Below, one piece after another: positions 51,776 to 63,633 of a stretch of 64,000 nucleotides of DNA (its first letter is position 1; each line of letters begins with the position of its first letter). This DNA is from Thermotoga petrophila RKU-1 (GTDB lineage Bacteria; Thermotogota; Thermotogae; Thermotogales; Thermotogaceae): the NCBI RefSeq assembly GCF_000016785.1, contig NC_009486.1, forward strand, positions 1,054,001-1,118,000, read 5' to 3'. Below the pieces are notes generated by a model. The model saw only the letters and a list, made by a program, of their open reading frames with translations. It made no database searches and had not been told where the DNA came from. The position numbers were made by a program, and so were the translations under genes.

Positions 51776-52805
51776 GAACCTACAAAGTCCCTGTGCCAGT
51801 GGAATTGTATCCTTTGTGTTCTGAACTGAACAGGATCGCCGCTCGGATCTACAACAAAACCATGTCGCTGGTCAAAAAGATCAAAAACAAGAGAGGAAAA
51901 ATTTTCTGCCGTTCATTTGGAAAAATCAAGCCATCAAGCTTTTGCCAGATGGGAAGGTCAAGCTCTCGATGGGACGCAATCGAGAGCCATTTGTAATCCC
52001 CACAACGTTGCCAGCCGGTACAACAATCAGGCAAGCCAAGTTGGTTTACGAAGCCGGCCGGTATTATCTTCACCTTGCGATAGAGGTGAAGAGTGAGCAC
52101 AAGAGAGGCCAAAGCCAGAAAGTTATGTCCGTAGACGTCGGAATACTCCGCCCGATAACCTGTTTCGATGGTTCTGAGGTGATTTCATATCACGGTGGTG
52201 TTCTCAACAGCATACTCAGATACCGAAACAAAAGACTAGCAGATATTCAGCGGGCTTTGAGTCGATGCCAAAAGGGCTCACGAAGGTATAAAAAACTGTC
52301 GAGAGCCAAAAGAAGGGTGCTGTACAAGACGAGAAACCAAATCAACGACGTGCTCCACAAAATCACGAGCTACTTCATCGGTTTATGCGTGCAAAAGAAC
52401 ATAAGCACCATTGTCGTCGGAGACATTACGAACATAAGAGAACGCACAAACGGCAACGATAATTTCAATCAAAAACTGCACCAATGGGCCTTCAGAAAGC
52501 TCATGAGCCAGATAGAATACAAAGCGCAAATATTCGGCATCGAGGTTGTGCGCATTTCTGAAGCGCATACAAGCAAAACGTGTCCTGTATGCGGCACTCA
52601 AAACAGGCCGTCTGGACGAAATTACGAGTGCACCAGCTGCAGTTTTGAGTATCACAGGGACGGAGTGGGAGCAATCAACATTTGGAAAAGGTATCTTGGG
52701 ACTCTGTTCCAAGTAGTAGCGGGCTTGGCACCCGCCAGAGGTGTGAGGTTTAACCCACACCTCTGTGGTCATGGAGCGATTAGCGCTCCATGGAAGGCAG
52801 CCTAA
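51760..52805 (+). pseudogene. tnpB (RuvC-like RNA-guided nuclease family), disrupted
   Basis: The first ~45 codons (51760 on: RTYKVPVPVELYPLCSELNR) give the TnpB N-terminus. Most of the ~100-residue region before FIWKNQAIKLLPDGKVKL is missing and the frame shifts near 51900. The rest is open to 52805. The RuvC region shows MSVDVGILRP (first Asp), VVGDITNIRE (position of the second acidic residue, here Gly where Glu is common), the zinc finger CPVCGTQNRPSGRNYECTSC, and HRDGVGAINIWK (third Asp). It has no complete wedge/recognition lobe, so it should be inactive as a nuclease. Confidence 0.8.
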
Positions 52806-53559: not shown

Positions 53560-56144
53560 ATTCATATTCCTCTTAGGAAGATAAAAACGGACAGGAACTT
53601 TGAGATTTTATTTAGCCACGAACAAGTTCATATTCCTCTTAGGAAGATAAAAACTCGTAGAGTTTGCCGTTGGAGGGCACGGCGTCTATGGGTTCATATT
53701 CCTCTTAGGAAGATAAAAACATTTCAAACCTCAAAATTGCGTGCCGAACGTTCTCCTGTTCATATTCCTCTTAGGAAGATAAAAACTTGGGGGCGACATC
53801 AACGATGCATCAGCGGTGATTGTTCATATTCCTCTTAGGAAGATAAAAACTTGAAACGTCCAAAATAAAGGCTGTACTGTTTCCCATGTTCATATTCCTC
53901 TTAGGAAGATAAAAACATTATTCCCACCTCCGTGCCTCTATAGATTGTACCTGTTCATATTCCTCTTAGGAAGATAAAAACAAGGTCGTGTCTCTACTAT
54001 GCTGTATGCTAGATCAGGTTCATATTCCTCTTAGGAAGATAAAAACCAGTACATAGCGGGCTTAAGTAACAGGGATTCTTATACGTTCATATTCCTCTTA
54101 GGAAGATAAAAACCAGGGATTTGAAGATCTTCAGCACTACCTTCGGAAGTTCATATTCCTCTTAGGAAGATAAAAACCCTGGGCTCCAGAAATAAGTATT
54201 AGCTGTAACTATTTTGTTCATATTCCTCTTAGGAAGATAAAAACCAGTACCTGTACGTGGCAAATCGGGAAAATTCTACGTTCATATTCCTCTTAGGAAG
54301 ATAAAAACTGTCTTGAGAGGTGTACTTGAGAAGGAGGCGAAATGAGTTCATATTCCTCTTAGGAAGATAAAAACGAGGAAGTATCAAGGAAGAAATCTTC
54401 ATAGATGCAAGTTCATATTCCTCTTAGGAAGATAAAAACCACAAAAATCATTATGAACAGTTTGTATGGCAAATTGTTCATATTCCTCTTAGGAAGATAA
54501 AAACACGACACAAACACCGGAAAACTTGTTGTATTTTCAGAGTTCATATTCCTCTTAGGAAGATAAAAACGTGACCGTTTTTGTATGTTGTGTCGGGAAA
54601 AACCATCGTTCATATTCCTCTTAGGAAGATAAAAACCCCACATCGCTATCCCTCCTCATAACCATCGCACTTCGTTCATATTCCTCTTAGGAAGATAAAA
54701 ACCGTTCGTCAGCACAATTCTCGGAAGGCCTGTGGCGAGTTCATATTCCTCTTAGGAAGATAAAAACTGAAAGGTCTTGAACAGCTTCTTCAGGCGGTGG
54801 CATCGTTCATATTCCTCTTAGGAAGATAAAAACCTGACCCTTTTTCCTCATCCCTGAGTGTCCATCTATAGTTCATATTCCTCTTAGGAAGATAAAAACA
54901 TATCTATACCACAGCATTTCTGCAACTTCAGGGACAGTTCATATTCCTCTTAGGAAGATAAAAACACGAAATACAACATCACACAAACTTTAGGCACTTT
55001 TGTTCATATTCCTCTTAGGAAGATAAAAACAACTACTACTCTTTTGTCACCAATAAAAATACTAAAAGTTCATATTCCTCTTAGGAAGATAAAAACGTTA
55101 TAGACTGGAAACAACTGAGGGGAGGTAGATGATAGTTCATATTCCTCTTAGGAAGATAAAAACGAGATGAAGCACTAAAAGGGCTATATTCCTATAATGC
55201 GTTCATATTCCTCTTAGGAAGATAAAAACCGTTCGTCAGCACAATTCTCGGAAGGCCTGTGGCGAGTTCATATTCCTCTTAGGAAGATAAAAACTGAAAG
55301 GTCTTGAACAGCTTCTTCAGGCGGTGGCATCGTTCATATTCCTCTTAGGAAGATAAAAACTGATTCGCGGGAACGGCGATCTTTTGCTCTTCGACCGTTC
55401 ATATTCCTCTTAGGAAGATAAAAACTTGTCCTAACTCTTTCCCGCTCTCAAGTTCAACATGTTCATATTCCTCTTAGGAAGATAAAAACGAAGAACGAGA
55501 AGGGCAAGAAAAAGAAGAAAGTAAGTTCATATTCCTCTTAGGAAGATAAAAACAACTTGAAAAGGACTTCATCGTTGAGGGAGAGCCTGGTTCATATTCC
55601 TCTTAGGAAGATAAAAACTTTTTGATCTCACTGAAGAAGATTTTATACTCAATAAGTTCATATTCCTCTTAGGAAGATAAAAACTTTGTTGTCCCTATCT
55701 CCACCGCAAAGGACGTGACGCGTTCATATTCCTCTTAGGAAGATAAAAACACCTCACACTCGCATACAAAGTCGCAGTAGGATATCGTTCATATTCCTCT
55801 TAGGAAGATAAAAACGGTATTGGAAAGGGTTGGTTAATAGGTGTGGGACGGGTTCATATTCCTCTTAGGAAGATAAAAACGCGACGCTGTACAAATACCC
55901 CTATTTAATTGACGCGTTCATATTCCTCTTAGGAAGATAAAAACACTACTCTTCTTTCGTGATATTCCTCTCGTATATTGTCGTTCATATTCCTCTTAGG
56001 AAGATAAAAACTACTTTGACTCTGCGTACATTAGTGCGGTGATTAGTTGTTCATATTCCTCTTAGGAAGATAAAAACGATAACAAAATTTCGAAACGTTA
56101 TGACATACAAGGATAGTTCATATTCCTCTTAGGAAGATAAAAAC
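53560..56144 (-). CRISPR. Type I-B CRISPR array, 40 repeats and 39 spacers
   Basis: I count forty 29-nt repeats (first copies at 53560, 53626, 53692; last at 56116). On the transcribed minus strand the repeat starts GTTTTTATCTTCC and ends GGAATATGAAC, with a weak inner palindrome TTCCTAAGAGGAA. All are identical except that the 53560 copy has A for G at its outer base. Spacers are 35-38 nt. Spacers 18-19 (54703-54804) recur as 26-27 (55230-55331). The last 8 nt of the repeat (ATATGAAC) would form the 5' handle of the crRNA after Cas6 cleavage. The leader lies at the cas2 end. Confidence 0.98.
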
Positions 56145-56222
56145 CGCATTCATTTTTTTAGTAAAAAAAACACATTATAGAACATTTGTTATATGAGTAT
56201 TGCGTCAAACCTCCGGTTTTGT
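56145..56222 (-). promoter_or_regulatory. CRISPR leader
   Basis: Only 78 bp separate the cas2 stop from the first repeat. On the minus strand there is TATAAT (complement of 56174-56179), about 30 bp before the repeat, and an A/T-rich run including TTTTTTTTACTAAAAAAAT next to it. TTGACG occurs 23 bp before the -10, too far for a normal -35. New spacers should be added at this end. Confidence 0.6.
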
Positions 56223-56504
56223 CTAAATGAAATTCGATGTTGGATCGTTCGTATTGGTTAGAATGTCTCTTTCTATCATAATAGAAGGTGGCATTTTGTA
56301 AATTATCACAAAGTCTTCGTCATTATCAATGATGCATTGTAGTTCAAATTTTAGTTTCTCGATTTCTCCCTCCGTTAGTTCTCCTTCAAAAACCGATTTT
56401 TGAACATGGTCAAGATATCTCCTTGCTATCTTCCTTACTCTGTTTAATCGTTTCACTCCTTCTTTTGTCTCAGTAGAAATGTCGTAAACCAGAATAACTC
56501 TCAC
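56223..56504 (-). CDS. cas2: CRISPR adaptation protein Cas2
   Basis: 93 residues, ferredoxin-like fold. MRVILVYDISTE has the usual Asp after the first strand; RRYLDHVQKSVFEGELTEGEIEKL follows the family pattern. Cas2 is the structural core of the Cas1-Cas2 spacer integrase. GTG 56504 was preferred over GTG 56511-56513 because TAGGTGATA stands before it. It is the last gene of the cas operon and borders the leader. Confidence 0.95.
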   Translation of the reverse strand: MRVILVYDISTETKEGVKRLNRVRKIARRYLDHVQKSVFEGELTEGEIEKLKFELQCIIDNDEDFVIIYKMPPSIMIERDILTNTNDPTSNFI

Positions 56505-56513
56505 TAGTATCAC

Positions 56514-57497
56514 CTACCACCAAACCTTGAAAGGCTTGTACTCATCTTCTCCGAGCAGATGTTTGATTATTTTATAAGCCTCCAATCTTATGAAAGACTG
56601 ATATTTAACCTTTCTCTTCAGCTTTCTATGAAGAACTGTTTGTTGAAGCATATTTTCGAATTCCTCCACAAATATTCTTCGTCCTTCATCGTTTAAAAAC
56701 ACTCCATTGGATTCCTGAAGGAAATGATTTTCACGTTTAATCTTGCCAAGATTTATGAGTTTGAATATTATCCTATCAACAAAAATAGGTTTAAATATCT
56801 CCGATATGTCCAAAGCAAGCGAAAACCTTTTGGTACCCGGTTCATGAAGATAACTAACGGTAGGATTCAAATGTGTATGATAAAGTTCCTTCAGAACAAC
56901 GGAATAGGTAAGAGAGTTTCCAAAGGAAATAAGAGCATTCAGTTCATTCAAAGGCGGTTGCATGCTTCTTTCTTCAAACGGCCAGTCTGTTATATCTTCC
57001 CAGGTAGAGTAATAGAGCTTTCTGGCGTGCGCTTCACAACTCATGAGCTCCGGGATAGTCGCTACGTGCTTTATTCTTTCCTGATATTCGGATATCTTAC
57101 TGACAATATCGAATCCTCTTTTTTCGATGTTTCGTTTGAAGTTATGGATTGCTCCTTCTACAAACTTTCTCGCCAAACTCAACCTTTTCTCATTATCCAG
57201 ATAGTGTTCCACCTGTCTTACCAAAAGTTCTCCTGAGAGAAATTTTTCCCTTGGATAAAAAGAGCCGGTGTAATATCCATAATAATTGAAAAAATGGAGA
57301 ACAATATTGTTTTTTGCAGCAAAATCCAGAAATTTTGAATTCAAATCAACCTCACCTAAGAAAAATATCTGATCAACGTTTTCTACCGGAATGAACCTTT
57401 TTTGCTGTTTCCCATCTCTATCCTGATATTCTATTAAGATACTATTTTCTCGCCTTCGTATTCTTCCAGAGGAAAAAACATAATAGTTTCTTCCCAT
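56514..57497 (-). CDS. cas1: CRISPR integrase Cas1
   Basis: 327 residues. Metal ligands: the Glu in MSCEAHARKLYYSTW (~residue 153), the His in VSYLHEPGTKRF (~216) and the acidic DISEIFKPIFVD (~231). The N-terminal beta domain starts YYVFSSGRIRRRENS. Cas1 cuts and joins new spacers into the array. ATG 57497 follows TAGGTGATT; the gene abuts the cas4 stop. The type I-B Cas1 sequence and neighbours are consistent. Confidence 0.96.
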   Translation of the reverse strand: MGRNYYVFSSGRIRRRENSILIEYQDRDGKQQKRFIPVENVDQIFFLGEVDLNSKFLDFAAKNNIVLHFFNYYGYYTGSFYPREKFLSGELLVRQVEHYLDNEKRLSLARKFVEGAIHNFKRNIEKRGFDIVSKISEYQERIKHVATIPELMSCEAHARKLYYSTWEDITDWPFEERSMQPPLNELNALISFGNSLTYSVVLKELYHTHLNPTVSYLHEPGTKRFSLALDISEIFKPIFVDRIIFKLINLGKIKRENHFLQESNGVFLNDEGRRIFVEEFENMLQQTVLHRKLKRKVKYQSFIRLEAYKIIKHLLGEDEYKPFKVWW

Positions 57498-57506
57498 AAC
57501 AATCAC

Positions 57507-58031
57507 CTACACATAACACAGTTCGTAATACGAACATTTTTTACAAAAAGATCTGTTCAGCACAGGTGGAGGTATCTTGCTACTCACCATTTGCTTTATT
57601 TCTATTAAAGCGTTTTGTATCTTCTCTTCATCCCCATCTTCAAAATTTACTTCTAATTTCCTCATTAACTTTGGATAATGAATGACACCGTGGTTAACAT
57701 TCAATCCGTACTTTCTCAAAACGAACATGTAGTATTTTGTCTGCCAAACATGTGCTTCCTCAAACTTCTTGCTCTTTTTGGTCTCGTGAACTATTATCTC
57801 CCCGCGGAAAGTGAGGAAATCTATCACACAGTCCTCAATCTCTACCTCCTTATGTCTTTCCCGTTTGAACCTTTCAAAATTCAAAAGTTTCCCGATTATG
57901 AGATCAGTTGTCGGCTGTGATTGTTCCATATCAATGTTTTTGGCAAAAAGCCAGAGTTTTCGTTTACATGTGAAATAATAGGAAACCATGGTACCAGAAA
58001 CGTTGAGCATATCAAACTCTTCCAAGTTCAT
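57507..58031 (-). CDS. cas4: Cas4 RecB-like nuclease
   Basis: 174 residues. It has the Fe-S cluster cysteines Cys22 (YYFTCKRKLW) and Cys163, 166, 172 (FCKKCSYYELC). The RecB/PD-(D/E)XK core is CVIDFLTF, EIIVHETKKSKKFEEAHVWQTKYYM with Asp, Glu-x-Lys and the QxxxY motif. Cas4 trims and orients prespacers by PAM. The start overlaps the cas3 stop (ATGA). Compact, close to the typical size. Confidence 0.93.
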   Translation of the reverse strand: MNLEEFDMLNVSGTMVSYYFTCKRKLWLFAKNIDMEQSQPTTDLIIGKLLNFERFKRERHKEVEIEDCVIDFLTFRGEIIVHETKKSKKFEEAHVWQTKYYMFVLRKYGLNVNHGVIHYPKLMRKLEVNFEDGDEEKIQNALIEIKQMVSSKIPPPVLNRSFCKKCSYYELCYV

Positions 58032-60325
58032 TCCTCCAGGAAAATTCCCAGACCTTTTTCGTACCTGCTACCCTTCAACACATAAAGCGCGCTTGCCCAT
58101 TTCAATACTTGTTCATTCTCGGATTCTACCTCCAAAGGCTCTAAAGCTCCACTTTTTATGTGGTGGAGCGGAACATCAACAAGATATTTTGCAGTAACTC
58201 GCCTGAAGTCAAAGTAATCCGATACACTCTTCAGCTCCCGCTTAAGATCTTCTTTCAAATTTTCCGGAACAATGCTCATGGATACTACCCTTCTGAAAAT
58301 CCTGTGGGCTTCATGCTTCTTTTCTGAGGAATAACCGCTATCGAGAACATCAAGAGTCTCCCGAAATTTCTTTAAATAGTTGCTTCCTTGAGAAAGTGCC
58401 TGATAGGTCTCTTCCACCCATTTTCTTTTTGATAGCTCATCCAGCTTAAATGGTTTTTCTATGTCAAACATGCCTTCTAACGCGTTCAAAGTTGCAGATA
58501 CAACATCTTCACTGTAAACCCCGGCGATAAGCTCCTTTCGCTTTTTCTCATTGCTATCAGCGTATATGAAAGTATTCGGAAATTCTTCAGTCCACTCCCT
58601 TTTTCTGAAGATTCTTCCCATCCTCTGCACCAGAGAATCCGCTGGTGCTATATCTGTAAGCAGAATATCAAAATCAATGTCCATTGAAGCCTCCACAACC
58701 TGTGTTGATACGAGAATAATGTTTCTTCCCTTCGCTCCTGGGCGGTAACTTTCCAAAATCTCCTCTATTCTTCTTCGATCCTCCAGAGTCATCCGGGAAT
58801 GTATCAGTAGAACATCCTCTTTTCCCAGTTTCTCTACAAGTTGCCGATAAGTTTCAATCGCATTCCGCACTGTGTTTCTTACTATCAAAACCCTACATCC
58901 TTTTTTGAAAAATTCAACAGCTTTTTCCACGGGATCCAAGCTTTTTTCAACTTTAACCAAATTCCGTAGTAATCTTCCCTGAGGAATGTCTTCGTAAACA
59001 TCTTTTATATTCTTTTCCTCTAGCTCGGCTCTTTTTAAGATCTCATCCCTGATGAATCCAGGCAGTGTAGCTGTCATTATCAAAAAATGTCCTCCGAGTT
59101 GTTTCACATCCTCAGCTGTCTTGACAATTATCGCTGCAGCTTCGGGAGAATAGGCCTGTATTTCGTCTATCACAAGATAGGAATTAGCCAGGATTGAATA
59201 GATCATCTCGTATCCCGGATATTTCAAAGCAGAAGGAAAGACTTGATCCCCCGTCGATATTACGAAAGGATGAGAAAAGAATCTTGATTGTTCCACTATC
59301 TGAAGCACTTCTCCTTCTCTGTCCTCAAAGTTGTTTTTCAGAAAACTGGAGAAAAACAGATAAACAGCAGCATCGGAATGTAGAAGACCGACGTTTTCTT
59401 CACCAAAATAATTCTTAACTCTTTCGTACATCATGTTCGTTGCGCTCTGAAGAGGAAGAGTGAACAAGGTTTTTCCTTTGCTCCACATCAGGGCAAATTC
59501 TGTCTTTCCGGCTCCGGTCGGCGCCACAAGTACAATATTTTCTCCTCGACAATCTTTCAGAAGATCCAGTTGCCATACTTTGTTGGATATTCTCTCCAGA
59601 TATCTTCGAACAGTCTCAAGCTGATCTCTTTCCAGTCTTTTATCTGCTTTCTTGAGAAGCTCCTTATTTCCAGCCGTTTCCACGTAAGATGCGAATCTAT
59701 CGGCTCGCATGACTGTCCCAGAGGTGATTATGTAACGCTTGTAATTTTCATCTCTTATATTCAGTTCTTTAAGGATGATACTCGGAAGCAGAGAAATCAA
59801 ATGAGGAGGGAATACTAAGCCACTGTCAATTATCGAGTTATGTGATAAGTATTCACACAGCGGTTTGTTCAATTCAATTTCACAGAGATCTCCCATTTCT
59901 TCTCTGAGAAGCCAAACTATCTCATCACCTACTTCAAGAAGTCTTTCGTAAGCTTTACAAACACTTTCTTTTTTTCTTCCAAACAGATAGTCAAGATAGG
60001 TTTCTCGCCAATGATGGTAAAGAACCGCTGAAAGAAAAATGCGAGAAAGTCCTTCACCGAGTTCTCTGAGAGTATTCTCCGGGATAAATGCTATACTCAG
60101 AAAGCTGTGCGGAATGTCGGGAATACCATCTTCCGGGACATCTCCTCCAACTTTTTTTTGAAACGCGTATATTACTTTACCCAAATCATGATAAAGGATA
60201 GCTTTCCCAGCAAGTTCTCTTACTCCAGAATCTATCTGAAGATTCTCCAGTACTTCCAATAAATCCAGTACGTGCTCTCTGAGAGTAACACCGTTGCTCT
60301 TGGCAAGAATTTTGGACATGGTCAT
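58028..60325 (-). CDS. cas3: Cas3 HD nuclease-helicase
   Basis: 765 residues. The N-terminal HD nuclease domain shows REHVLDLLE, YHDLGKVIYAF (~residues 45-55) and YHHWRETYL; the SF2 helicase has Walker A VAPTGAGKTEFALMW (~270), DEIQAY box (~385), MTATLPG, and VSTQVVEASMDIDFD with QRMGRIFRKREW. HD and helicase lie on one chain. Cas3 is recruited by Cascade to degrade the target strand. The start is ATG 60325 (overlapping cas5) or ATG 60319, which sits better behind GAGGGGG. Confidence 0.95.
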   Translation of the reverse strand: MTMSKILAKSNGVTLREHVLDLLEVLENLQIDSGVRELAGKAILYHDLGKVIYAFQKKVGGDVPEDGIPDIPHSFLSIAFIPENTLRELGEGLSRIFLSAVLYHHWRETYLDYLFGRKKESVCKAYERLLEVGDEIVWLLREEMGDLCEIELNKPLCEYLSHNSIIDSGLVFPPHLISLLPSIILKELNIRDENYKRYIITSGTVMRADRFASYVETAGNKELLKKADKRLERDQLETVRRYLERISNKVWQLDLLKDCRGENIVLVAPTGAGKTEFALMWSKGKTLFTLPLQSATNMMYERVKNYFGEENVGLLHSDAAVYLFFSSFLKNNFEDREGEVLQIVEQSRFFSHPFVISTGDQVFPSALKYPGYEMIYSILANSYLVIDEIQAYSPEAAAIIVKTAEDVKQLGGHFLIMTATLPGFIRDEILKRAELEEKNIKDVYEDIPQGRLLRNLVKVEKSLDPVEKAVEFFKKGCRVLIVRNTVRNAIETYRQLVEKLGKEDVLLIHSRMTLEDRRRIEEILESYRPGAKGRNIILVSTQVVEASMDIDFDILLTDIAPADSLVQRMGRIFRKREWTEEFPNTFIYADSNEKKRKELIAGVYSEDVVSATLNALEGMFDIEKPFKLDELSKRKWVEETYQALSQGSNYLKKFRETLDVLDSGYSSEKKHEAHRIFRRVVSMSIVPENLKEDLKRELKSVSDYFDFRRVTAKYLVDVPLHHIKSGALEPLEVESENEQVLKWASALYVLKGSRYEKGLGIFLEE

Positions 60326-61104
60326 CCCCCTCTATCCGACTTCCTGATCTTTGCGAGGAAAATGGGTATGTTGTTCCAGGAAAGTATTTCAGGAACATCG
60401 AAATGGATCATCGGAATAGATCCATAATAAAGCTTTGCTGGAATAAAATCAAAAATTCTTTTGTTGTTCTGAATAGTGTAAATGGAAGACACCTTGTAAG
60501 ACGCTCCTATAATCTCTTGATACAGCTCGTTATAGTTATCACACACCTCGTCAGCGAATTCTGGAGAAGGTATCCATGTGTAACCACCCGTGCTGAAAAC
60601 CTTTTTCTTTTCACAGTTTACGAGTTCATAATTTATTTCATCAACCGTGTCTTCAGATCTTCCAAGATGTATCCTTGAAATGTACCCAGGATTTTCCAAA
60701 GACTGTTTTATCATTTCAAGGACATCTTCTTTCGCTTTGACGAACAAATCAACCCTTGGATTTACAAGAGTCTGGATTCTCGTCGGCATCTGCCCTCCAG
60801 GATGTTCTATTTCATGGTTTATTTCCCTGTTTCTTAAACTCTTGAATTTTTTGACGTGAGAGCCTTTTTCCAAGTTCCTGAGCCAGGTGTACTCTTCCAC
60901 TACTCCTTCGTGGTTTCCCACGATAGCCATAGAGAATTCTGAGTTCAAGAAGGACTCTATTTTTGACTCATCACTGAGGATGTTGCAGATGAGACCTATT
61001 GCGGTGGAATACATCGGTATGGGAAAGGTTTTTCTTTCAAATATGAAGAAAGGAATAGCAAAATGAGCGGTTGACGCTTTAACTTCTATTCTTAACAATT
61101 TCAT
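60322..61104 (-). CDS. cas5: Cascade subunit Cas5 (Cas5t)
   Basis: 260 residues, RAMP fold. The N-terminus LRIEVKASTAHFAIP and the block TAIGLICNIL resemble Cas5t of the Tneap subtype. Cas5 caps the 5' handle of the crRNA in the Cascade complex. The start overlaps cas7 (ATGA) and the end overlaps cas3 (ATGA), consistent with co-translation of Cascade subunits. It is the most divergent member of the operon after Cas8; the call relies partly on position. Confidence 0.88.
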   Translation of the reverse strand: MKLLRIEVKASTAHFAIPFFIFERKTFPIPMYSTAIGLICNILSDESKIESFLNSEFSMAIVGNHEGVVEEYTWLRNLEKGSHVKKFKSLRNREINHEIEHPGGQMPTRIQTLVNPRVDLFVKAKEDVLEMIKQSLENPGYISRIHLGRSEDTVDEINYELVNCEKKKVFSTGGYTWIPSPEFADEVCDNYNELYQEIIGASYKVSSIYTIQNNKRIFDFIPAKLYYGSIPMIHFDVPEILSWNNIPIFLAKIRKSDRGG

Positions 61105-62099
61105 GGGTTTTCTTCGCCTCCGATGACTTCACGCAACCATTTATTCAGCTCATTTAATCCTGCACACAATTTTTCTGAGCTTCCTTTCAGGATAGAAGGC
61201 ATTCCCCATATCCTGTAATCTTTAACATTTGTGTTTTCTTCCGCTATCTGGGATATTGTTTCAACATCTATCTTTCCCCCGTCAAGTCTCACGTAAGGAT
61301 TGAAAAGTGTTACGGGTAGTTTGGTGGTTGCCATGACTATGAATACAGGTGATACACTCCAGCTTTCTGTGGAGGAATGTATTTCAAAGCCGTTTATTAT
61401 CACATCAAAGAATTGTTCTAAACGCCTTTGTTTTTCTTTTTCATCAAGAAGCACAGAAATTTTATAAGCTTTTTCAGATTTCTTAACCAGTATCTTTCCT
61501 TTTGGAAGTGGATATTCATCTTTCTCCATATCCACACCAAACAATTTTTTCAACTTTTCCTTCTCATTGTCAGTAGTGAAAACCACATCCTTACCAATGT
61601 TTTCAAGATCTACTACAACGGAGTATTTGTAAAAGGAAAAATGCTCCTCCTTTGAAAATGGGTTGGGATTTGCTTCTTCTCCTCTCTCACGGGCTCTTTG
61701 AACCAAATCATGGTTTGCGTAGAACGCCATGTCTCCTTCCCATTTTTCCATAGACACCGCTTTTGTCAGACCAACGGGTGCTTTTCTTGAAATAGAAACA
61801 TCTCCAGTACTGAGATATCCGAAGAAGTCCAGTTCCTCAGACGTTAAGATACTTTCTTCTTCGATATTGAACTGAATAACACCTCCTTTTGTGGTAACTT
61901 CAGCCGGTTTCCAACCATGTTTTCTGACAAGAGCATTGAAAATATGATGCCTCATGCTGGAACGAGAAAAGAAAGTGTAAACCCCATCTTCTCTCCGGAG
62001 CTTCTTCAAAGATTGAACGTTGTTTGCTATATTTTCATCTCTATTCACAGCGCAGGCCTCAAAAACCACTGTAGCGGTTATTGCCTTCACCTCATTCAT
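61101..62099 (-). CDS. cas7: Cascade backbone subunit Cas7 (Cst2/DevR family)
   Basis: 332 residues. The DevR/Cst2-type start AITATVVFEACAVNRDEN is followed by SSMRHHIFNALVRKHGW and the glycine-bearing central region FFGYLSTGDVSISRKAPVGLTKAVS. Multiple copies form the filament along the crRNA. ATG 62099 has GGAGGTGAA just upstream; a longer in-frame ORF to 62114 would overlap that site. It overlaps cas8b by 8 bp. Confidence 0.92.
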   Translation of the reverse strand: MNEVKAITATVVFEACAVNRDENIANNVQSLKKLRREDGVYTFFSRSSMRHHIFNALVRKHGWKPAEVTTKGGVIQFNIEEESILTSEELDFFGYLSTGDVSISRKAPVGLTKAVSMEKWEGDMAFYANHDLVQRARERGEEANPNPFSKEEHFSFYKYSVVVDLENIGKDVVFTTDNEKEKLKKLFGVDMEKDEYPLPKGKILVKKSEKAYKISVLLDEKEKQRRLEQFFDVIINGFEIHSSTESWSVSPVFIVMATTKLPVTLFNPYVRLDGGKIDVETISQIAEENTNVKDYRIWGMPSILKGSSEKLCAGLNELNKWLREVIGGEENP

Positions 62100-63633
62100 T
62101 CTCTTCACCTCCACTTATTATTCCACTCACGTAAGCAAACATCAAATTTTTGAAGTTCTCGTCGTTTTCTGAGAAAACCCTATTCAGCTCTTCGGGGAAT
62201 GGTTTCTTGTTCGCCATATAAGTTTTCAAGAGCAAATGATATACCTCATCCTTTTTTGCAAGCCTTATTAACTCTAAAAGTCTGTATCTGGTGCGCTCAA
62301 AAAGCTGGGAAACTTCTCTTCCAAGCTCTCTCATTTTCCAGACAGGAACCACCGTTTCCACCCCCAAAGTATTTCGTACTTCCTGAAAAAGTTCAGGTAT
62401 CATCCAAGCATAATATCTCTTTTTCTTGGGATCGAATACTTCTATGTACTCTTTTATTTTGGAATCGTCCCCTGGATTGAGGAAGTACTTTAGCAGGAAA
62501 TACTCAACTTCGATTAGTTTGTTTAGTCTTTCTGGATAGATGACTGTTTCAAAAATCTTGATGCTGTTTATGGAGTTCAGGATAGAAGATATCCTTGTGT
62601 TCAGCAGAAGATCTACGGTCCTTTGAGGTACATAGTATACACTATAAGATTTACCATCGTAGTTCACAATTTCTATGTTTTGTCTCTCCCAAACACCTAA
62701 AAGTCTCTGAAGTTTCATATGAACTTCTGCTACCGCTCTGGAAACTGAAAGTTCTATATTCAGATCCTTGTAAGCTTTTATTGCCTCGTTCAAGTACCAT
62801 ATGGCTTTAAAAGAAGGAACATTTACAAAGATTTCTTTCTTACTATTTTTTGGAAAGACAAAGTGTCTAAACAAAGCAAATTGAGAACATAGATCACATA
62901 AGTGGTATTCATTGTTTATATTCCAAAATGAATTTGGGAACTCTCCTTCTGAGGATGAAAATTCTTTGAAAAGAATTCTTGAAAATTGTTTCCTTTGACG
63001 AATAGATGTGTTCTCGCTTAATCTCAAAGGATTTCCGCAAAGGAAGCATCTTTCTGAGCCAGACAAATCTGGTTTTCTGAATATGGAACGAATAATTTCT
63101 GATAGATAAACTCTGAATTTTTCTTTTTCAGACTGTAGTAAGAAGTTCCTAAGCTCCTCAAGATCTCTATCATCAAACTTCGACAGAAGTTCCTTGGATT
63201 TCTTTTTGATCTGTGGTATCTTAATTTTTTTCTCTTTAACTTGTAATAAAATCTCTCTTTGTTGTTCATTGCTAACTAGTGGCAAAAGCTCGTCAATCTC
63301 CTTATTTGTAAGGCTAACATTTGCTATATAATTTTCATAATATCCGATATTACCTTTAAAGTAATTGTATGCTTTTTCTATACTTCCCTCTCTCTTTACT
63401 ATTTCTTCCATCATAAAAACAAACAGCCGAGGGAAAGTTACTCCTTCAAGATTGTCATTTTCGTACATCTCATCCAACATTTCATCCAACAAGATAACCG
63501 TTCCATCATCCTTGAGAATGTCCATAACTCCGAAAGAAATCTTTCCCTCTTTTGATTTTTCGTTTATAACTTTCAAAAAACCATAGACATTGGCGTTGTG
63601 AAGCCAACTCTGTGGATATATGACTATCGCCAC
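62092..63633 (-). CDS. cas8b: Cascade large subunit Cas8b (Cst1)
   Basis: 513 residues. A CFLCG pair (~194-198) and a later CDLC pair (~245-248) form the zinc-binding region typical of Cst1/Cas8b of the Tneap I-B type. The N-terminus IYPQSWLHNANVYGFLKVI is family-like; the rest is helical. The large subunit recognises the PAM and recruits Cas3. GTG 63633 has GGTGGTGAAA upstream and overlaps the cas6 stop region. The operon order cas6-cas8b-cas7-cas5-cas3-cas4-cas1-cas2 supports the assignment. Confidence 0.9.
   Translation of the reverse strand: MAIVIYPQSWLHNANVYGFLKVINEKSKEGKISFGVMDILKDDGTVILLDEMLDEMYENDNLEGVTFPRLFVFMMEEIVKREGSIEKAYNYFKGNIGYYENYIANVSLTNKEIDELLPLVSNEQQREILLQVKEKKIKIPQIKKKSKELLSKFDDRDLEELRNFLLQSEKEKFRVYLSEIIRSIFRKPDLSGSERCFLCGNPLRLSENTSIRQRKQFSRILFKEFSSSEGEFPNSFWNINNEYHLCDLCSQFALFRHFVFPKNSKKEIFVNVPSFKAIWYLNEAIKAYKDLNIELSVSRAVAEVHMKLQRLLGVWERQNIEIVNYDGKSYSVYYVPQRTVDLLLNTRISSILNSINSIKIFETVIYPERLNKLIEVEYFLLKYFLNPGDDSKIKEYIEVFDPKKKRYYAWMIPELFQEVRNTLGVETVVPVWKMRELGREVSQLFERTRYRLLELIRLAKKDEVYHLLLKTYMANKKPFPEELNRVFSENDENFKNLMFAYVSGIISGGEENE

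Follow-up and report, generated by a model that had tools for sequence, protein, structure and literature searches.

A CRISPR spacer of Thermotoga petrophila RKU-1 reads as motif B of a family B DNA polymerase

Results and Discussion

We analyzed a 64,000 nucleotide stretch of the Thermotoga petrophila RKU-1 genome (NC_009486.1, positions 1,054,001 to 1,118,000, further called the window). It contains a CRISPR array, and the second + frame of its spacer 14 reads TKIIMNSLYGK. We consider it very likely that this spacer is an ordinary type I-B one that came from a protein-primed family B DNA polymerase gene (organellar/viral type, PF03175/phrog_1907) of a mobile element which enters Thermotoga and did not turn up in the sequence collections that we searched. 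The best reading of our results is that Thermotoga species immunised themselves against elements, either viruses or linear plasmids, that have their own protein-primed family B polymerase. To our knowledge, viruses of Thermotoga are hardly known. We found no report of such a set of polymerase spacers in the open-access literature. A shale study assigned two viruses to a T. petrophila MAG on the basis of perfect spacer matches (PMC8762873).

A preliminary description of this DNA had stated that the spacer at 54440-54475 encodes motif B of a family B polymerase. This was confirmed, as these positions are the exact limits of spacer 14, the peptide is TKIIMNSLYGK, and it obtained the top rank in the profile scan presented below. 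Three further frames of spacer 14 are open as well, therefore an open frame alone is no proof. Throughout the text we take DxxSLYPS, KxxxNSxYG and DTDS to be the family B polymerase motifs A, B and C, respectively.

The window contains a complete type I-B CRISPR-Cas locus

The following features were identified in the window:

53560..56144, - strand, CRISPR array, 39 spacers (37 of them distinct) between 40 repeats of 29 bp each
54411..54439, - strand, repeat left of spacer 14
54440..54475, + strand, spacer 14 of 39, polymerase motif B on the + strand
54476..54504, - strand, repeat right of spacer 14
55490..55524, + strand, spacer 30, KNEKGKKKKKV in one frame, low complexity
55619..55655, + strand, spacer 32, 20 nt identical to a spacer of genome G091
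55751..55786, + strand, spacer 34, peptide-level counterpart in array L266 of genome G093
55945..55982, + strand, spacer 37, 23 nt identical to a G093 spacer
56145..56222, - strand, inferred leader, resembles the sequence beside a homologous array of genome G092
56223..56513, - strand, cas2 (TIGR01573)
56514..57506, - strand, cas1b (TIGR03641, type I-B Cas1b)
57507..58031, - strand, cas4 (TIGR00372)
58028..60325, - strand, cas3, HD nuclease and helicase (TIGR01587, TIGR01596)
60322..61104, - strand, cas5b (TIGR01895)
61101..62114, - strand, cas7, Cst2/DevR (TIGR02585)
62092..63633, - strand, cas8b1, Cst1-like (TIGR01908, 19.8 bits, cut-off 19.4)

The repeats are near-identical (39 of 40 exact, the first with one mismatch), the spacers are of similar length and the I-B cas genes are adjacent. 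The locus is therefore a complete type I-B CRISPR-Cas system. It has the same full cas set and array side by side as other systems of this type and shows nothing unusual. Since the right flank of the array resembles that of the homologous G092 array, and in the other arrays that we read the conserved flank is likewise the right one, we place the leader on the right, with transcription running from right to left. With the leader on this side, the crRNA of spacer 14 would be the reverse complement of the displayed spacer and thus antisense to the polymerase mRNA.

Inside the array, a block of two spacers with repeats was exactly duplicated (54673-54833 and 55200-55360; the spacer at 54703 equals that at 55230, and the one at 54768 equals that at 55295). 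To the left of the array, at 51942-52805, lies a gene of a TnpB-family RNA-guided endonuclease.

Spacers of sister genomes cover four conserved places of the polymerase

We joined the 37 distinct window spacers and compared them with 103 genomes of the phylum. Outside the own genome only one match reached E<=0.001, namely the 23 nt shared with G093, which sit in a CRISPR array whose repeat is not that of the window array. The spacer adjoining this match reads LFTKIIMNSLYG, in codons differing from those of window spacer 14. Since the neighbour gave the same peptide in other codons, we gathered the arrays of seven genomes of the genus. We obtained 758 spacers, 729 of them distinct, with 9 to 198 per genome; the set may lack arrays that touch a contig end or whose repeats diverge strongly.

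Six of the 729 distinct spacers, originating from three of the seven genomes, fell on four conserved places of a family B polymerase: one on motif A, two on motif B, two on the stretch before motif C and one on motif C. In order, the four pieces read DFNSLYPSVM, FTKIIMNSLYGK, SVLCWASYVTSWARV and YCDTDSIITD. Besides window spacer 14, the spacers were:

G095, L277+1147, motif A spacer, DFNSLYPSVMY
G093, L250+5499, second motif B spacer
G093, L254+2559, pre-motif-C spacer, CWASYVTSWARV
G095, L276+2773, pre-motif-C spacer, SVLCWASYVTSW
G093, L266+2859, motif C spacer, YCDTDSIITDVD

The two pre-motif-C spacers correspond to the VTSxAR stretch just upstream of motif C and have the common core CWASYVTSW. 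The coding strand is the displayed one for three of the six spacers and the opposite one for the other three, thus both strands of the polymerase gene were sampled. Motifs A, B and C are all present among the spacers of three genomes, but six spacers cannot prove one shared element. The earlier suggestion of an attack on the lineage by an element that brings along a B-type polymerase is thus supported by five more spacers, from two other genomes, on motifs A, B, C and the pre-C stretch. A further candidate, L267-4447 (VFILNSKYGHDW), was too weak to be kept.

The polymerase segments rank first among the spacers

We prepared a profile of 61 viral family B polymerases. Briefly, a relaxed-pattern search gave 76 viral contigs, 7 matches lay in frames shorter than 30 aa, and the 61 contigs with frames of at least 450 aa were used. 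Of the 61 sequences, 58 had a recognisable motif A and all had DTDS. The profile was used to scan 4204 translated segments of the 729 distinct spacers, with 4081 segments of reversed spacers as a control. The segment of spacer 14 ranked first of 4204 (12.9 bits, E 0.0064) on the motif B columns, although the contigs had been fetched with an NSLYGK pattern and the motif B score is therefore partly built in. Ranks 2 to 4 were taken by motif A (G095, 11.1 bits), motif C (G093, 8.0 bits) and motif B (G093, 6.4 bits), and all top four segments lay on the matching profile columns. Rank 5 was the VTSWAR spacer CWASYVTSWARV (1.5 bits). The best reversed-spacer segment reached -1.4 bits (n = 4081).

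Both overlapping pairs of spacers differ by synonymous changes only, which is evidence independent of any knowledge about family B polymerases. The motif B pair (window and G093) differs at 9 of 29 nt and at no residue, and the peptide was kept in none of 200,000 random placements of the differences. The CWASYVTSW pair (G093 and G095) differs at 6 of 27 nt, again at no residue (peptide kept in 1 of 200,000 random placements).

We also compared the peptides of all spacers with each other. Without knowledge of polymerases, this comparison returned pairs around TKIIMNSLY (score 44) and CWASYVTSW (score 59). At a score of at least 44 there were 46 real frame pairs and none in the control, and at a score of at least 40 there were 60 and 2, respectively; the real pairs include overlaps on the same DNA. 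At score 34 we observed 107 frame pairs, same-DNA overlaps again included, against 18 in the control. This excess suggests that further target genes may be recognisable by peptide comparison. When 2886 open spacer frames were compared with ORFs of viral contigs, polymerase motifs came out on top (55, 53, 52), but the reversed control reached 53, 50 and 49, therefore this untargeted scan proves nothing by score.

The pieces fit a protein-primed polymerase better than a Pol II type enzyme

We assembled a composite in which the four pieces were separated by X. It matched the phrog_1907 DNA polymerase at 6e-9, best over the stretch from motif B to motif C, and more weakly phrog_11768 (0.074); since the pieces were picked for likeness to family B polymerases and their order and spacing were set by hand, these E-values are flattered and not independent. 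A control composite of the same layout, made of the best peptides of reversed spacers, gave no match. Among 50,697 phage records the composite matched solely four genomes of Methanosarcina spherical virus (MetSV), weakly (E 0.2 to 0.4), and it had no match among plasmid records. As a locus query it gave 108 stretches matched by pattern, none of which was confirmed, and a relative could be among them.

The type B polymerase of MetSV (Tectiviridae) is identical to the motif A piece over the ten residues DFNSLYPSVM. The remaining three pieces align, in matching order, with LFVKYLLNSLYGKF, TCFCWCSYVTSYARV and YCDTDSIFT of this polymerase. A difference is that MetSV infects a methanogenic archaeon, and the record that we read splits the polymerase into two annotated genes. 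MetSV reached a summed score of 205 (best places, any frame, in gene order), while the top score among 218 other loci was 157; these loci are not a random sample, as motif patterns had been used to fetch many of them. The best 11-residue spacer matches to the four MetSV segments scored 52, 40, 55 and 45, while reversed spacers reached at most 24, 25, 31 and 19. For the A, B and C segments, the best unrelated spacer among the matches listed scored 17, 21 and 23. The pattern WAR plus YCDTDS was searched in viral contigs, and among the matches listed none scored above MetSV. Polymerases of contigs which we take to be phi29-like, as well as tectivirus-like and autolykivirus ones, have the same order of motifs A, B and C, and a VTSxAR-like stretch is present in many viral contigs; their summed scores to the spacer peptides, however, were below that of MetSV. 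The preliminary description had compared the polymerase with phi29-like protein-primed enzymes. This holds in the wider sense, as PF03175 and phrog_1907 fit, but the closest polymerase that we found is that of MetSV and not that of phi29.

A cellular-type or T4-like family B enzyme (RNA/DNA-primed, PF00136), as in large tailed phages, is in our opinion an unlikely target. KIIMNS[FL]YG occurs in at least 80 genome loci (pattern KIIMNSLYG), which we presume to be Pol II genes, but among the 80 loci listed the residue after the glycine of the motif was V in 76 and I in 4, and never K. A profile of 68 presumed Pol II proteins likewise ranked spacer 14 first (10.7 bits); nevertheless, all four pieces scored higher on the protein-primed than on the Pol II profile (13.7/10.6, 11.1/7.2, 8.0/-0.7 and 1.3/-5.3 bits), with motif B biased by the fetching of contigs. 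Nineteen weak phage matches of spacer 14 included three that are annotated as B-type polymerases. Two of these are in line with the PF00136 type, namely H1 (PolB, Microcystis phage Mel-JY01) and H3 (DNA polymerase II), while H6 is of the protein-primed type. In Pfam, the composite gave only DNA_pol_B_2 and not DNA_pol_B (E 0.065; the score of 12.5 is below the cut-off of 25.8, and the match covers motif B only). On approximately 50 residues, the pieces thus fit the protein-primed (PF03175) subfamily and viral profiles better than PF00136.

That a spacer from unrelated or non-coding sequence spells motif B by chance is extremely improbable and already largely contradicted: spacer 14 has its other open frames and no protospacer in the collections searched, anyone familiar with many motifs is bound to spot one somewhere, and random peptides score high against large ORF sets, as in the reversed control of the untargeted scan, but a second genome holds the same peptide in different codons and four conserved regions of one polymerase were matched, with no such matches in the reversed controls.

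Protospacer and polymerase searches

In the own genome (1,823,511 bases, one contig), spacer 14 was found at <=3 mismatches only at its own place. The comparison with 50,697 phage and 72,556 plasmid records returned short weak matches and no protospacer. The preliminary description had proposed looking for the protospacer in viral sequence collections, and none was found in phage records or viral contigs. It had also named two outcomes that would speak against its reading, a protospacer in an unrelated gene and a match in the host chromosome; the former did not occur in phage and plasmid records, nor did the latter at <=3 mismatches.

Patterns covering all codons for TKIIMNSLYGK or KIIMNSLYGK were absent from viral contigs, and the pattern for KIIMNSLYGK also from genome contigs. 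Further protospacer and peptide-pattern searches of viral contigs gave no match. The window array and two G093 arrays had no convincing match among phages (E 0.1 or worse). A 13-nt match of spacer 14 to L251-4180 was judged to be chance, with stops in that frame.

PF03175 had no match in any of the seven Thermotoga genomes, and PF00136 had none in the own genome, the sole one examined for it. Among the 103 Thermotogota genomes, PF03175 was above the cut-off in only two, G003 and G010. Their contigs (G003:C265, 3.3 kb; G010:C107, 11.2 kb) thus share this polymerase family, but belong to other families of the class and are loose contigs of fragmented assemblies. The spacers had short matches to these two contigs, none convincing. 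The G010 contig (L295, 11,244 bases) looks like a small tailless virus; it encodes a PF03175 polymerase of 726 aa along with a short ORF that is ATPase-like (GKTGSGKT). The G003 contig (L294, 3,286 bases) carries a phrog_1907 polymerase (DINSMYPYVM, NSLYGKFG, MDTDS) with the N-terminal part in another frame. Matches to phrog_1907 were present in 82 of the 103 genomes; outside G003 and G010, all those listed end by profile position 249 of 629, which we take for the exonuclease part.

Proposed mechanism and identity of the element

In type I systems, crRNA leads Cascade to matching DNA beside a PAM, and Cas3 degrades the DNA. In the proposed mechanism, transcription of the array would start from the right-hand leader, and the resulting guide would be antisense to the polymerase mRNA. 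Loaded with the crRNA of spacer 14, Cascade (Cas8b/7/5) would bind the DNA of the element, which Cas3 would then destroy. The element itself would use this polymerase, together with a terminal protein, to replicate linear DNA.

Our results support the view that the spacers point to a so far undescribed element of a known kind, which has a MetSV-like protein-primed polymerase and was encountered by at least three of the seven Thermotoga genomes that we examined. More doubtful is the possibility that a tectivirus-like tailless protein-primed lineage, related to the archaeal MetSV, infects hyperthermophilic Thermotoga and has so far been visible only through polymerase fragments in CRISPR arrays. 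Since no spacer clearly matched any MetSV gene besides the polymerase, we use the word tectivirus only tentatively.

The six spacers yield approximately 50 residues of the polymerase, enough to recognise a contig of the element in hot-reservoir metagenomes. These pieces would make a thermostable protein-primed polymerase findable. Comparison of the spacers of sister species at the peptide level exposed targets that were missed by nucleotide searches.

Other possible targets of the arrays

Spacers 9, 10 and 11 of the 26 in G093 array L250 are consecutive, and their counterparts are window spacers 30, 14 and 37. The likeness to spacer 30 is weak, in Lys-rich sequence of low complexity, and the G093 frame was read by eye. 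The counterpart of spacer 37 directly adjoins the G093 motif B spacer, and window spacer 37 probably targets the same element as the motif B spacer. Three neighbouring L250 spacers with window counterparts thus suggest several acquisitions from one element family. Array L266 of G093 holds both the counterpart of spacer 34 and the motif C spacer. One overlapping spacer pair suggested a CCA flank for window spacer 37; with a handful of pairs, this was not counted as evidence.

Two G093 spacers (L250+5968 and L254+2428) encode APPLHPNCRCSII and HPNCRCSIIFD, presumably typical of MuF-like minor head proteins. Based on these spacers, tailed phages may be among the attackers as well. Spacers of two genomes (G093, L251-5371; G094, L273+4594) encode, in different codons, a Walker A-like motif, GTGKTTFV[AG]RL.
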